Of a stretch of DNA of 6,213 nucleotides, positions 765 through 4,825 are shown one piece after another (position 1 is the first letter of the stretch; each line of letters starts with the position of its first letter). The notes beneath the pieces were generated by a model that worked only from the letters and a program-made list of their open reading frames with translations, made no database searches and was not told the DNA's origin. A program made the position numbers and the translations under genes. Origin of the DNA: an uncultured Bacilli bacterium (GTDB lineage Bacteria > Bacillota_I > Bacilli_A > RF39 > UBA660). The stretch covers positions 1-6,213 of the forward strand of contig CALVRQ010000124.1 in assembly GCA_944358685.1 (NCBI GenBank), written 5' to 3'.

Positions 765-779
765 GTTTATGTTATAAAC
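765..779. promoter_or_regulatory. 15-bp palindrome GTTTAT-GTT-ATAAAC, candidate operator in the membrane-protein/regulator leader
   Basis: The arms GTTTAT and ATAAAC are perfect inverted repeats around 3 bp. The site lies 15 bp upstream of the membrane-protein ATG and downstream of the predicted transcription start. The same arms with the same 3-bp gap recur at 3407-3421 and 3487-3501 in front of the DUF2141/receptor operon. Size and symmetry fit a dimeric winged-helix protein. Binding by the adjacent regulator is inference. Confidence 0.55.
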
Positions 780-794
780 TTTATGCGGAAAAAT

Positions 795-822
795 AAAAGC
801 AAGAAAACGAGGACTTGCTTTT
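795..822 (-). promoter_or_regulatory. 5' leader hairpin of the membrane-protein/regulator operon
   Basis: In the minus-strand transcript AAAAGCAAG (822-814) pairs with CTTGCTTTT (803-795) across a 10-nt loop, and ATTTTT follows. It begins 6 nt after the -7 element, so it should lie at or very near the 5' end of the mRNA. The same 9-bp stem, again followed by ATTT, occurs at 3436-3467. The U-rich 3' side also resembles a weak intrinsic terminator, so it could act as an attenuator, a 5' mRNA stabiliser, or the terminator of the upstream receptor gene, which ends at 847. Confidence 0.5.
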
Positions 823-827
823 GCTTG

Positions 828-859
828 CAAATATAAAACGGTTTCATCAATCTGCCAAA
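828..859 (-). promoter_or_regulatory. Bacteroidetes-type promoter of the membrane-protein/regulator operon
   Basis: Read on the minus strand, TTTG (859-856) is separated by 20 bp from TATATTTG (835-828), fitting the Bacteroidetes housekeeping consensus TTTG/TAnnTTTG with its 19-21 bp spacing. The predicted start of transcription is near 822-824. The -33 element and much of the spacer overlap the original 3' end of the receptor gene (stop at 847-849), so the two operons abut tightly. Confidence 0.75.
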
Positions 860-1130
860 CGGTTCCGCTGGGAAAATTTGCCTTTTTCCACTTCCGTCTT
901 TTTCGCTTGTTTCCCTTTTCCGAAGTTCCATGCGATTCCTATTTTCCATGTCCTCCCTTGCGAAGCTGTGTGGATATGTATGTCTCTCTCGTAGTCTTCC
1001 GTATGGCATGCATAGCCGGAAGAACGGTCGAACAGATTGTCTATGCCCAGCGTGAGTATCCATTTCCCTTGATTGAATTTTTTCTGCAAGCGGATGTCTG
1101 CCGTGTGATAGGGATTGATTTCGCTATTCC
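847..1130 (-). pseudogene. Detached C-terminal part of the TonB-dependent receptor, out of frame after a frameshift
   Basis: In the frame one base away from the main receptor reading frame, this stretch encodes GNSEINPYHTADIRLQKKFN, then WILTLGIDNLFDRSSG, a strand ending KIGIAWNFGKG, and a charged tail ending QRNRLAD. This is the standard end of this barrel family: the 'DIRLQKKF' and 'LGIDNLFD' strands, then the terminal aromatic strand, with a lysine-rich tail. Stop is TGA at 849-847. An ATG at 1089 could restart it, but a fragment without plug, signal peptide or most of the barrel would not be a functional protein. Adding one G to the GGGG run (plus-strand CCCC, 1129-1132) joins it to the upstream frame as ...YAYIRGNSEINP..., giving a 718-residue protein. 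Confidence 0.85.
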
Positions 1131-3002
1131 CCGAATGTAAGCGTAAGCTCCGCTGTATTTCATTTCAAGTGAAAGATCCCAAGGCAGGAAGCATTCGGCT
1201 TGGGCGCGGATGAAATAAAGCCAATGGCTTTGCCGTTCCTCTTCGGGATTCATATAGATGTCTTGCCTGGATCCGATAAAGTTGGCGGTAAGGTTTAGCC
1301 AGCCTGTGGGTTGCCAAGGAGCGGAAATTGCAACGAACCAATGATTTTCCCGATGGTGGTTTTCGTAAGTGACGTATGCGATGTCCGGATTTGCTTCGTC
1401 TTGCTTGGTAAACTCGCGAATCAGGTTTTTATGCAGATTGCCTCCTATGGTTAAGGTATAGCGGTATTTGTAGATTAGCGTCAGGCTGAAGCGGTTGATG
1501 TAAGTAGGCTTCAGCCAAGGGTTTCCTATCTGGTAGCTATAGTCGGAGGTTTGTGTCCGGTTCGGGTTTAGTGCCGCGAATGCCGGGCGTTCGATGTACT
1601 TGCCATATTGTCCTGCCAGCATCCAGTGTTGGAGAGGGTCGAACGCATAGCTGACATCCATGTGCGGAAACCAGTCGAAATACCGTTGGTTTACGTTGTT
1701 TTCCCGGTTAGAGGTATGGGTATATTCCAACCGGAGTCCGACTTTTACCGACCATTTCCTTCGGGTAAATGTGTATTGTGCATACCAGGCGGCTATCTGT
1801 TCCCGGTAATCCCGTATGTAACCGAAATCGGGCAGGGGCGTCCACGTGGTTCCGCTACGGAATCCTTCGTATGCCGAAGTGTTATCGGTATAGGTTTGTG
1901 TGTATTTGGCACCTGTTTGGAAAGATTTGCTATTCCATGACACATCTGCGTTGATAATCCGGTAATCGGCTTTTGTTTGCGACCGGTATAAAGTATCCTT
2001 TTTGTAATCCCCGGCTTGGCGCAGGATGTTGTAGCGGTTTTTTCCTTTTGCATGTTTGCCGGTATAGTCTGCCAATATTTTTAATGTCGAACAGGAATGT
2101 GACAGGCGGTGCTGGTAGCTGAAATTAACGGATGTCATGTCGTAATCAGATTTTTGGTGATAATTCCCATGGCTATAGACCGTTTCATGTCTGTTGCTTA
2201 TTGCGTCACGGCTATGCGACGGGTTATCGGATGAATGGCGGAAGTATTCCACTTCCAGTCCGAACGTATTCAGCGTGTCGGGCGAGAAGATGATGCCTGA
2301 GCGGAACGTCTCATAATCTGATGTTTGCTTTCGTGCTCCTGTGCTTTGAAACTGTTTGCCTGTTTGGCGATAGATGCGGTCTTCGTTCCAATCGCTTGCA
2401 TCTTCCGGTTTCCAGGTTATGGAAGCGGAAGCGTACCAGTCCCATTTGTCCCAATGTGCATGCCAACTTCCGTTAGGCTGATATTGCTGGGCGGAATGTC
2501 CTGTTGTGGACATCAGCGAGAAATGCCCTTGCCAACCTTTCTGCTTGGGTTTTCTTAACAGGATATAGACAGCACCGCCTTGAGCGTTTGCATCTTTTTC
2601 AGCTCCGGAGAAGGGAAGTATCTCGATGCGCTGGATGTCTGCCGATTGCAAGGACTGCAGGCGGAAATGCAGAAGTTCTCCTTCCAGCCTCACTTCCTGT
2701 CCGTTGATATAGACTTTGGCTCCAGACGCTCCGTTGATGGAAATCCCTTTGTCGGAAAGCCATACACCGGGTGCTTCTTTCAACAATTCAATTCCGTTTT
2801 TTCCCGAGGATGGTGTCACTTGCATGATAAACCGGTCGGCATTCCGCTTGATTTTACTGCTTCTCACCGTTATCTCTGGCAGGTCGTAGGTTTTCAATGT
2901 AGCATGGATGCTGTCCGTCAATGCCTGTGGGGCGATAGGCATCCCATGTAGAAGTGCAATGCCTCCTGTATATAATAGGTAGAGAAAGACCAGGCGTTTC
3001 AT
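1041..3002 (-). CDS. TonB-dependent outer-membrane beta-barrel receptor, frameshifted near the C-terminus
   Basis: The open frame gives 653 residues. Residues 1-20 are a signal peptide (MKRLVFLYLLYTGGIALLHG). A short linker with a TonB-box-like segment (LPEITV, 41-46) leads into a plug domain (about 55-150; EAPGV 76-80, VYINGQ 97-102, GGAVYILLR 142-150). The remainder is barrel strands of the OMP_b-brl_3 (PF14905-like) type, distinct from SusC. The carboxypeptidase-regulatory-like N-terminal domain common in this family is absent. From residue 625 the reading becomes unrelated (RGIAKSIPITRQTS...) and stops at 1041, while the true end is encoded out of frame at 847-1130. As written, the product lacks its last strands and terminal aromatic signal and should not assemble. 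The ATG overlaps the TGA of the DUF2141 gene (ATGA), so both share one promoter. Substrate unknown. The frameshift may be real or a sequencing error. Confidence 0.85.
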   Translation of the reverse strand: MKRLVFLYLLYTGGIALLHGMPIAPQALTDSIHATLKTYDLPEITVRSSKIKRNADRFIMQVTPSSGKNGIELLKEAPGVWLSDKGISINGASGAKVYINGQEVRLEGELLHFRLQSLQSADIQRIEILPFSGAEKDANAQGGAVYILLRKPKQKGWQGHFSLMSTTGHSAQQYQPNGSWHAHWDKWDWYASASITWKPEDASDWNEDRIYRQTGKQFQSTGARKQTSDYETFRSGIIFSPDTLNTFGLEVEYFRHSSDNPSHSRDAISNRHETVYSHGNYHQKSDYDMTSVNFSYQHRLSHSCSTLKILADYTGKHAKGKNRYNILRQAGDYKKDTLYRSQTKADYRIINADVSWNSKSFQTGAKYTQTYTDNTSAYEGFRSGTTWTPLPDFGYIRDYREQIAAWYAQYTFTRRKWSVKVGLRLEYTHTSNRENNVNQRYFDWFPHMDVSYAFDPLQHWMLAGQYGKYIERPAFAALNPNRTQTSDYSYQIGNPWLKPTYINRFSLTLIYKYRYTLTIGGNLHKNLIREFTKQDEANPDIAYVTYENHHRENHWFVAISAPWQPTGWLNLTANFIGSRQDIYMNPEEERQSHWLYFIRAQAECFLPWDLSLEMKYSGAYAYIRGIAKSIPITRQTSACRKNSIKGNGYSRWA

Positions 3003-3376
3003 CGTTCTAAAGGATTATCGAAATAAAACAATTTCAACTTACATGCATCTTCTTTTTTCTTCGGATGATGCTTTTCCCGTGCAAAACCTTCTACAGGTTT
3101 TCCCTGTTCGTCTGTATCTATTTGCCAATTTTCGTTTTCATCGTGAAAGACAGAAATGGTAAAGTGCTCCCAAGTCACTTCTTCTATTGTGATGGTCACC
3201 TCTCCCTTTTGTGCTTTTGCCATTCCGTAAACAGGTTTGTTTTGTCCGTCCGCTTGAAGCATGACCAAGATATTCCCGTTATCATTGCGGATATTGCCGA
3301 TGGAGATAGAAAATCCTTTGGCTGAAGCAGATACAGACAAGCTTAACAGCGCGATTATAAAGCAGATTGTTTTCAT
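2999..3376 (-). CDS. Secreted DUF2141-domain protein, first gene of the receptor operon
   Basis: The product is 125 residues. Residues 1-19 (MKTICFIIALLSLSVSASA) are a clear signal peptide for export to the periplasm or beyond. The mature part shows the DUF2141 (PF09912) pattern: an N-terminal strand with IRNDNGNILVML (29-40), the hallmark ISVFHDENENWQIDT (74-88), and GKPVEGFA (92-99), followed by a basic segment and a short C-terminal strand. The family's function is not established; it is a small beta-sandwich often encoded beside outer-membrane receptors. I chose ATG 3376-3374 because the signal peptide begins there with Met-Lys; an in-frame ATG at 3382-3380 adds only Met-Ile. The TGA (3001-2999) overlaps the receptor ATG, implying translational coupling. 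It may be an envelope accessory to the receptor, which is inference. Confidence 0.85.
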   Translation of the reverse strand: MKTICFIIALLSLSVSASAKGFSISIGNIRNDNGNILVMLQADGQNKPVYGMAKAQKGEVTITIEEVTWEHFTISVFHDENENWQIDTDEQGKPVEGFAREKHHPKKKEDACKLKLFYFDNPLER

Positions 3377-3406
3377 AATCATTTATTGTTTTAAGTTGAT
3401 AAATAA

Positions 3407-3421
3407 GTTTATAGTATAAAC
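3407..3421. promoter_or_regulatory. 15-bp palindrome GTTTATA-G-TATAAAC, candidate operator in the DUF2141/receptor leader
   Basis: This is the most symmetric copy: 7-bp perfect arms around one base. It lies in the untranslated leader, 30 bp upstream of the DUF2141 start and downstream of the leader hairpin, the same order as in the membrane-protein/regulator operon. A regulator bound here would act as a roadblock, or the transcript itself could fold. Confidence 0.55.
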
Positions 3422-3435
3422 CGAATACGTTAAAT

Positions 3436-3467
3436 AAAAGCAAGAGTGCGCGCTTTCCCTTGCTTTT
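3436..3467 (-). promoter_or_regulatory. 5' leader hairpin of the DUF2141/receptor operon
   Basis: In the minus-strand transcript AAAAGCAAG (3467-3459) pairs with CTTGCTTTT (3444-3436) across a 14-nt GC-containing loop (GCGCGC inside), followed by ATTT. The 9-bp stem is identical to that at 795-822, while loop sequence and length differ, so the stem seems to be what is conserved. It starts 7 nt beyond the -7 element, at the 5' end of the mRNA. Confidence 0.5.
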
Positions 3468-3473
3468 GTTTTG

Positions 3474-3505
3474 CAAATATAGAATAGTTTATTTTATAAA
3501 CCAAT
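3474..3505 (-). promoter_or_regulatory. Bacteroidetes-type promoter of the DUF2141/receptor operon
   Basis: On the minus strand, ATTG (3505-3502, three of four matches to TTTG) is spaced 20 bp from a consensus TATATTTG (3481-3474). The -7 element and the following CAA are identical to those of the promoter at 828-859. The spacer is almost entirely filled by the palindrome at 3487-3501, so a protein bound there would compete with RNA polymerase. Confidence 0.7.
3487..3501. promoter_or_regulatory. 15-bp palindrome GTTTAT-TTT-ATAAAC between -33 and -7, candidate repressor operator
   Basis: Perfect 6-bp arms around 3 bp, the same arms and gap as at 765-779 and 3407-3421. Its position inside the promoter spacer is a classical repressor site. 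The membrane-protein/regulator promoter has no matching site in its spacer, so the two operons may respond with different strength. Confidence 0.6.
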
Positions 3506-3654: not shown

Positions 3655-3727
3655 GTTTGTAAGATTATTAATCTTTATGCCGAAAGATTATTAATCTTCA
3701 CGCTGTAAGATTATTAATCTTACAAAC
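3655..3727. repeat. Array of three identical 15-bp palindromes at 23-bp period
   Basis: AAGATTATTAATCTT occurs at 3661-3675, 3684-3698 and 3707-3721. Each copy is a perfect 7-bp inverted repeat around a central T, and the start-to-start distance is exactly 23 bp both times; the two 8-bp spacers differ (TATGCCGA, CACGCTGT). The outer flanks are also mirror images: GTTTGT before copy one and ACAAAC after copy three. Copies one and three with flanks could thus form a 21-bp stem with one central mismatch, copy two in the loop. It begins just downstream of the hydrolase relic. Protein-binding sites, a transcript-processing structure, or a dispersed genomic repeat are all possible. Confidence 0.8.
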
Positions 3728-3732
3728 GGTGC

Positions 3733-4124
3733 AGCTATATTGTGGTAGAACTGTTCGATTTTATCGAACGAGATTTTTCGCTGAATTAACGTGAGTGTGC
3801 TTTCTCGCCGTGGACAAGCAATACGGCATTGCGGATTTCACCGGCGTACGTCAGAATCGGCATGTTGAGGAACGAAAGTGAAGAAGTCTGATTCCATCCA
3901 CCGTTCGAGTTGAGCGAACGTTTGTGGTAGCCGCGTTTGGTTTTGTAGTAAGTCTTGCTGTGGTCTACCTTGTCGCTCTGTGGGAATACTTTGTCCCACG
4001 TTTGTGTTAAAGTCAGTTTTTCTTCTATAAAGCTATTAGAATTGATGGGATTATTCATAAGGCTGGAGGTGGCAAATAAGCCTGCCAGCAGGGTTGTATA
4101 AAGTCTTTTCAGTGGATGTTTCAT
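3733..4124 (-). pseudogene. Remnant of an alpha/beta hydrolase with two internal deletions and a nonsense codon
   Basis: A 112-codon frame (4124 to 3786) starts with a signal-like N-terminus (MKHPLKRLYTTLLAGLFATS) and reaches FPQSDKVDHSK (47-57), typical of the N-terminus of secreted Bacteroidetes alpha/beta hydrolases of the YcjY type. It then jumps to YYKTKRGYHKRSLNSNGGWN, SLSFLNMPILTY and LLVHGEKAHSR, which I recall from the C-terminal third of the same roughly 330-residue family. About 190 residues, including the GxSxG nucleophile elbow, are missing near 3954. After HSR comes TAA (3788-3786) where the family has Tyr, then FSE, and after a second deletion and frame change KISFDKIEQFYHN (about 3777-3739), matching the usual 'IPFDK..FY' end. 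The ATG lies 2 nt after the RibD_C stop, so the pair was once an operon. No activity is expected. Assignment rests on remembered family patterns. Confidence 0.75.
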
Positions 4125-4126
4125 GG

Positions 4127-4825
4127 TTAAGGTCTGCTTGGGTTTGTAGTGTCAATGACGTTATAGCGCAACCAGGCGGAGTTTTCACCGATGCGTTCCA
4201 TACTTTTCAGTTTCAGAAGGGTGGTGGGGTAATTTTTATCATCAATGCCATCGAATACGGCGGTCATTCCTTTCCTTCCATCGATTCCGGCACCGATTAC
4301 CAGGCTTACTTCGTCCAGCAGTCCGGCTTTCAGAAAGGCTCCGTTGATGTGTCCTCCTCCTACGATGGCAAGACGTTCTACGCCAAAATGTTCATTCAGC
4401 ATCTTTACGGCTTGAGTCAAGTCAACTTTTTCTTTTCCGGTTGTTATCCACGAAATGTTTTGTCTGCATAAGGTGTCAAGATAGGTTTGCGCCACTTGTT
4501 CACTTGCGATGACGAGCATTGGTTTTCCGTCAATATTGTTGCCAGGCCATTTCAGCTTGCCTTTCGAGTCGAGTACGATGGAATATCCTTTTGCTTCTGT
4601 TGCCTTGTAAAACGAAGATTGGTTTGCCGGTTTCGGATTGTCGGTGTGAAAAGGTTCGGGTAAGGCAATGTGCATGGCCGCCGTTATACGTCCTGATAAA
4701 TCGGAGTCGCAAGCCAGTTGCTCCAGTGCTTCGTAATATTCGTTTCCGCCAATGCGTTCCGTCATATCGCAGTCAATGCGTCCGTCTATGGATGCCATCA
4801 TGTGGCAAATGATGTAAGGTTTCAT
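4127..4825 (-). CDS. RibD C-terminal-domain (dihydrofolate reductase family) NADPH-dependent reductase
   Basis: The product is 232 residues with no signal peptide, so cytoplasmic. It is a standalone RibD_C (PF01872) fold: an opening strand and MMASIDGRID (9-18), a substrate-side segment around SGRITAAM (44-51), a central strand YSIVLDSKGKLKW (81-93), LVIASEQ (104-110), and the nucleotide-binding IVGGGHINGAFLKAGLLDEV (154-173), followed by a strand ending in LVIGAGIDG. In RibD this domain reduces the ribosylamino-pyrimidine intermediate of riboflavin synthesis with NADPH. Here the deaminase domain is absent and no riboflavin genes are nearby, so a different small substrate is likely; calling it ribD would be unsafe. 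Start ATG 4825-4823 gives the expected N-terminus. The gene is followed after 2 nt by the hydrolase remnant. Confidence 0.88.
   Translation of the reverse strand: MKPYIICHMMASIDGRIDCDMTERIGGNEYYEALEQLACDSDLSGRITAAMHIALPEPFHTDNPKPANQSSFYKATEAKGYSIVLDSKGKLKWPGNNIDGKPMLVIASEQVAQTYLDTLCRQNISWITTGKEKVDLTQAVKMLNEHFGVERLAIVGGGHINGAFLKAGLLDEVSLVIGAGIDGRKGMTAVFDGIDDKNYPTTLLKLKSMERIGENSAWLRYNVIDTTNPSRP

Follow-up and report, generated by a model that had tools for sequence, protein, structure and literature searches.

A palindrome over the promoter of a membrane-protein/HTH_34 gene cluster in Bacteroidales, very probably its autoregulatory operator, and a leader hairpin with a self-complementary loop

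Autoregulated winged-helix repressors of the MarR/PadR/HTH_34 group are small proteins acting on a short palindrome over their own promoter, a site which is nearly unique to the operon. A comparable arrangement was found in a gut bacterium on contig CALVRQ010000124.1, whose whole 6,213-nt stretch is called the window in the following. It carries a gene cluster with an HTH_34 regulator at its end and the palindrome GTTTAT-N3-ATAAAC in promoter and leader positions. Unlike in the described repressors, paired putative operators flank a conserved leader hairpin here, and an undescribed membrane protein is encoded ahead of the regulator. The full 95-aa orthologue of the regulator in Phocaeicola intestinalis (locus L001 in genome G001, 4.1 Mb, near-identical to the window; L numbers stand for compared loci, G numbers for compared genomes) scores 111.1 bits against the PF13601 cut-off of 27 and is a member of this family. 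The solved sequence nearest to the regulator is PH1061 (PDB 1UB9, E 2.7e-5), whose database name is merely "Hypothetical protein". Among the open-licence literature matches listed, no title pointed to a published site for these regulators, to the operator or to the leader, and nothing was found in the open-licence literature for HTH_34 together with Bacteroid terms. For this group of winged-helix regulators from Bacteroidales an operator can now be predicted, and with three sites in one genome the locus is a clean test case.

The hairpin, in turn, can be compared to palindromic kissing-loop dimer sites, like the retroviral dimerization initiation site or the site in the oskar 3' untranslated region. 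As described in PMC7357161, these sites share an apical loop with a six-nt, mostly GC-rich palindrome whose flanking bases are often purines. According to the abstract of this review, functional RNA oligomers have seldom been seen in nature (PMC7357161). The present hairpin differs in that it lies in a bacterial mRNA leader beside a protein operator, its loops carry many different palindromes, and the dimer is a predicted one.

The original prediction, made from the window alone, had named three copies of the palindrome with identical arms (Table 1). All three are exact, and no further copy occurs in the window at ≤2 mismatches (0.41 expected; a count of three was reached by 1 of 200 shuffles). 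The placing of one copy between the promoter elements also proved correct, as it follows immediately after ATTG at -33 and lies 5 bases ahead of the minus-strand -7 box. The Bacteroidota promoter consensus is TTTG at -33 and TAnnTTTG at -7, and both elements were seen around the operator in the leaders collected here, for which the -7 box was a selection criterion.

In the 201 genomes of the family, the exact motif is present in 68 of the 79 genomes with an HTH_34 match and in 22 of the 122 genomes without one (Fisher 1.5e-22, a value which overstates the case since related genomes are not independent). The reversed control pattern has no such link (28/79 vs. 43/122). An operator of this kind should lie over its own promoter and be kept in orthologues, and this was found. 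For this comparison, 87 of 90 regulator matches were taken with up to 5 kb upstream, and 72 orthologues at ≥57% identity with 1 kb upstream were analyzed; two orthologues at contig ends were excluded from the 72. The palindrome is located upstream in 62 of them as an exact copy and in 69 at ≤1 mismatch, whereas 40 shuffled-arm palindromes reached means of 0.05 and 1.85 at the same loci, with maxima of 1 and 7. At 66 of the 72 loci a copy lies directly ahead of the -7 box. Among 13 paralogues below 57% identity, only one has an exact site and two have a site at ≤1 mismatch. A similar picture emerged from the membrane protein encoded ahead of the regulator, for which the best 80 of 391 loci were collected. 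The palindrome lies within 300 nt upstream in 74 (69 exact) of the 78 loci with ≥200 nt of upstream sequence and ahead of the -7 box in 71 of 78. In L012, L022, L025 and L051 none was found within 300 nt, and in L012, L025 and L051 it occurs farther upstream.

The genome-wide distribution agrees with the original prediction in that hits are not evenly spread. G001 contains three exact copies, all at the cluster of the window, and none of the reversed control. Five other genomes contain 2, 2, 2, 2 and 1 exact sites, always at this operon by coordinates (reversed control 3, 0, 0, 0 and 1). Taken together, the near-exclusiveness to one locus, the conservation ahead of orthologues and the tracking of the regulator suggest that the HTH_34 protein, whose gene closes the cluster, very probably has GTTTATNNNATAAAC as its operator. 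This protein-DNA autoregulation is the firmer of the two readings proposed here; RNA self-pairing, discussed below, is the bolder one.

Several observations weigh against the autoregulatory operator. Besides the kinship among the genomes, the exact motif is missing in 11 of the 79 genomes with an HTH_34 match, and it is present in the 22 genomes without a match. Three of the 72 orthologues have no site at ≤1 mismatch (L207 and L229 with a two-mismatch promoter site, L241 with none in place), and the inner promoter of the window lacks its promoter palindrome. The 22 genomes would also fit a different regulator binding the palindrome, with the HTH_34 gene as merely one target, and binding by HTH_34 is itself a prediction. 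This explanation seems improbable, as the motif follows the HTH_34 orthologue, is nearly confined to the HTH_34 operon and is mostly absent from the distant paralogues. It is even less probable, to a degree that we regard as slight, that the palindrome acts as an RNA hairpin of the leader instead of a DNA operator. The leader copies do fold as hairpins, but the promoter copy is located upstream of the predicted transcription start, and its arms are nearly constant without covariation, a constancy that is biased upward because the sites were picked by similarity.

If the HTH_34 protein is the cognate regulator, its dimer, once bound to the promoter copy, would occupy the interval between the two promoter elements (-33 and -7) and obstruct RNA polymerase. 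By this block the protein would repress its own cluster and, in the species of the window, the genes for the DUF2141 protein and the beta-barrel. The leader operator about 80 bp downstream may add strength or act as a roadblock, and the hairpin with its U-rich tail, which opens the transcript, may attenuate or stabilise it and thereby tune read-through or stability. The membrane protein, whose gene directly precedes that of the regulator, probably detects a signal from the envelope and would gate the regulator.

The original prediction had assigned the regulator, in addition to its own operon, a small envelope regulon. Its control of the own cluster is supported by the orthologues and by the exact sites of G001, but there is no sign of a spread-out regulon. 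At ≤1 mismatch G001 contains 24 sites vs. 19 of the control, which, the exact sites aside, is no genuine surplus. A promoter-extended pattern gave no clear surplus either: 166 matches vs. 148 of the control at 2 mismatches on both strands of 10 genomes, with the own sites of the operon included. A wider regulon was rejected on these grounds. Among the motif places listed (132 sites in all), 42 of 75 are within 5 kb of the regulator. Unlinked exact sites in regulator-bearing genomes number 18 among the sites listed; 12 of them were inspected, 7 inside and 5 between open reading frames (ORFs), and they behave like chance occurrences. The palindrome is very probably a one-locus switch. Two of the five sites between ORFs are a second promoter-type palindrome in G037 and G007 (L161 at 3088, L162 at 3052), ahead of a short frame which by eye starts like the membrane-protein gene; it is apparently a duplicated, truncated copy of the operon start.

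The DUF2141 and receptor genes appear to share the operator in few lineages. For the species of the window this part of the original prediction is supported, but DUF2141 and barrel genes were found upstream together in at least 5 of 74 family loci, and DUF2141 alone in at least one more. Among the 80 membrane-protein loci, they are upstream in L001 and L022 (in L022 DUF2141 alone). These neighbour counts come from tblastn with a single query and hence are lower bounds. The two neighbouring operons described originally do have sites in promoter or leader positions; in four related genomes (G097, G155, G009, G011), however, DUF2141, barrel, membrane protein and HTH_34 genes form one row behind a single promoter palindrome, located 3.3-3.5 kb ahead of the regulator and before the entire row. 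G009 and G011 also have a two-mismatch palindrome near the inner position. The inner promoter and leader of the window can be aligned with the outer ones. In view of this alignment and of the four genomes, the inner leader looks like a degenerate extra copy of the outer one, in which promoter palindrome and loop have decayed. Neither the nature of this copy nor the hairpin between the paired operators was part of the original prediction.

Both minus-strand leaders have a common order: -7 box TATATTTGCAA, hairpin arms AAAAGCAAG and CTTGCTTTT, U-rich tail, palindrome and start codon. We gathered 145 leaders, in which some species are represented twice. A second palindrome at ≤2 mismatches is present in 75 of them and absent from 70; 65 distinct two-site leaders were folded. 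In the 72 operator pairs at ≤1 mismatch, the spacing is 68 bp in 2, 77-84 bp in 61 and 88-93 bp in 9 pairs. Helical phasing of the paired operators was considered and dropped, as the spacings fit no clean 10.5-bp rule. The hairpin stem covaries. In 23 hairpins, aligned by hand and chosen for 10-nt loops (an unbiased loop count was made on the set of 64 loops described below), 158 of 161 stem cells pair, G-U pairs included, with 3 to 6 standard pair types per position. In an initial MAFFT alignment of the leaders the stems were out of register, and RNAalifold accordingly predicted no pairs from it. For the leaders scanned, no Rfam family reached its gathering score; the weak matches, five with E up to 5, fell on a tRNA and on unrelated families. 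In leader attenuators, too, a hairpin with a U-rich tail is located between promoter and coding region, but here no leader peptide was noticed, no Rfam family was assigned and the loop is kept as a palindrome. Judged by eye, the tail of many relatives is a run of five or six U; in the window it is AUUU after a U-rich arm, and a generic terminator scan did not list the hairpin of the window. A covariance model of the Muribaculaceae-type hairpins (R1) found the operon in 14 of 20 genomes (E ≤6.5e-5, other matches 2.0e-4 or worse). It missed the operon hairpin in 6 of 20 genomes, G001 and G002 included, with 150 candidates per genome scored. Matches of R1 away from the operon were seen in G209, G210 and G211 at 29 to 30.5 bits. 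A leader class without the second operator (L009, L011, L017, L024 and similar) has the palindrome AGATTTATAAATCT directly after the -7 box, and other leaders have AGATTCGAATCT or GTGATTCGAACAC at this position.

The loop of the hairpin is self-complementary in most two-site leaders. When the best stem was chosen blind to the loop and a six-base palindrome was then sought, it was found in 48 of 64 two-site loops, while 6.1 were expected from shuffled loops. Among distinct loops it was present in 26 of 40 (expected 4.1), and ten hexamers are represented. Of 229 control terminators taken from L001-L080, 25 have such a palindrome; if only those with 8-12 nt in the loop are counted, it is 10 of 80. 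One-site leaders have it in 18 of 67 (4.5 expected); since only 8 of 52 distinct loops are positive vs. 3.4 expected, this class adds little. In a hand-chosen set, 17 of 19 distinct loops are palindromic, and none of 5000 shuffles equalled this. An earlier rule, which required a margin around the palindrome and ran stems into the loop, scored 42 of the 65 two-site leaders and 4 of the 67 one-site leaders as positive. When loop changes were inferred on a tree of the membrane protein (64 loci), 15 of them left a palindromic state, and 11 of these led to a different palindrome; with six corrections by eye the figure is 14 of 18. An apical six-base palindrome kept through sequence change, as in a kissing loop, was therefore observed, with the inner leader of the window and 16 of 64 loops as exceptions under the rule. 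Some of these 16 are positive on inspection, while others (G049, G183, G155) are not.

The predicted gain of an extended duplex over two monomers is 17.1 kcal/mol for the outer hairpin, while 60 scrambled loops have a mean of 5.1 and none equals it; for the inner hairpin it is 5.9 kcal/mol. These values are secondary-structure estimates and not calculations of a kissing complex. The scrambled-loop control is weak where the folded apical loop has 4 or 5 nt (G127, L043, L055, L068, G037, G128, G117), and G173 has no duplex gain over scrambled loops.

To our knowledge, there are few descriptions from bacteria of hairpin tips that pair with another molecule of their own kind. Sequence and folding model together tentatively point to such a case, which we hold to be possible: the leader of the autoregulated cluster would carry a dimer-forming kissing hairpin, and transcripts, or the short RNA of about 45 nt which early termination would give according to the sequence, might pair via the palindromic loop. 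In that event the leader would serve as antisense RNA to itself and add to the operator a second brake that depends on concentration. If true, the locus would provide an example of mRNA self-pairing in bacteria. We give an even chance to the plainer explanation that an ordinary intrinsic terminator, or a stabiliser of the 5' end, accounts for the hairpin and that its loop palindrome is inherited and functionless. The U-rich tail and the 16 loops without a palindrome fit this, and 35 of the 64 tree loci have either CGCGCG or TCGCGA, so that the palindrome counts are not independent. An ordinary terminator does not account well for the excess over shuffled loops and control terminators, for the ten hexamers or for the changes from one palindrome to another. 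That a second dimeric protein binds the hairpin region as a DNA dyad is unlikely. At the DNA level, inverted repeats are formed by the stem arms as well as by the loop, but a DNA-binding protein would hold the letters, and the stem letters drift with pairing kept; in the common 10-nt loops, moreover, arms and palindrome have different symmetry axes.

A separate structured leader was found in a group of one-site leaders which we call Prevotella-type (L195-L236, alignment A7). The 22 aligned leaders have 11 predicted pairs, 8 of them with a compensatory change, in nested covarying stems. The loop is CTTTCTGCAGGAG, and CUGCAG is present in 21 of 22, so self-pairing as tentatively proposed above might extend to these leaders via this loop in an unrelated fold. 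A covariance model (R2) gave one strong match in each of 21 of 21 genomes (E ≤2.0e-13, next 0.011), of which 19 were in the training set. There was no Rfam match in the leaders scanned, and this leader is a candidate for a new RNA family.

Table 1. Positions of the palindrome copies, promoter elements, hairpins and genes in the window.
Feature	Position	Strand	Evidence
HTH_34 winged-helix regulator, first 42 residues, continues beyond the window; gene start inside the 3' end of the preceding membrane-protein gene	1-126	minus	PF13601, E 4.3e-7, 30.4 bits
212-aa membrane protein, gene just ahead of the regulator	111-749	minus	ORF
Putative operator, leader of the membrane-protein/HTH_34 genes	765-779	none	exact match
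Inner leader hairpin, stem of 9 bp (795-803 / 814-822), U-rich tail; no palindrome in the loop	795-822	minus	z -2.79; 4/200 shuffles fold as well
Inner promoter -7 box TATATTTG	828-835	minus	sequence and alignment with outer leader
TonB-receptor-type outer-membrane beta-barrel	850-3002	minus	PF14905; comparison with L001
DUF2141 protein, first gene after the outer promoter	2999-3382	minus	PF09912, E 6.1e-11
Putative second operator in the leader of DUF2141, at a distance of 80 bp to the promoter operator	3407-3421	none	exact match
Outer leader hairpin, 11-bp stem, 10-nt loop 3447-3456, palindrome GCGCGC at 3448-3453, then AUUU	3436-3467	minus	z -2.46; 3/200 shuffles fold as well
Outer promoter -7 box TATATTTG	3474-3481	minus	sequence reading
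Putative promoter operator, between -33 and -7 elements	3487-3501	none	exact match; equivalent position in 66/72 orthologous loci
Outer promoter -33 element ATTG (consensus TTTG)	3502-3505	minus	sequence reading

The membrane protein of L001 is 99% identical to that of the window. No family was found for it in Pfam or NCBIfam, and it has 394 relatives at E ≤0.001. An N-terminal helix plus six long ones make up the predicted structure (mean pLDDT 79.3), and a fold search of this model against the PDB gave 0 matches at E ≤0.001; a signal sensor is a possible function. The frame of the beta-barrel is broken near 1140 in the window, by either a mutation or a sequencing error, and is intact with 718 aa in L001.

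Further observations were made around the cluster. L054, from a record titled Staphylococcus sp. MAG, contains operon and leader of the Muribaculaceae form, and this label is probably wrong. A RibD_C-type reductase has 232 aa in the window (region 3786-4825) and is shortened to 156 aa in L001 (2589-3366), and the adjoining 112-aa ORF of the window is not among the ORFs listed for L001; by sequence comparison these differences appear to be a recent rearrangement adjoining the operator. Three copies of the near-palindrome AAGATTATTAATCTT are located at 3661, 3684 and 3707 (span 3661-3721) with a period of 23, giving 6 matches on both strands vs. 0.01 expected, and are possibly the operator of another regulator.

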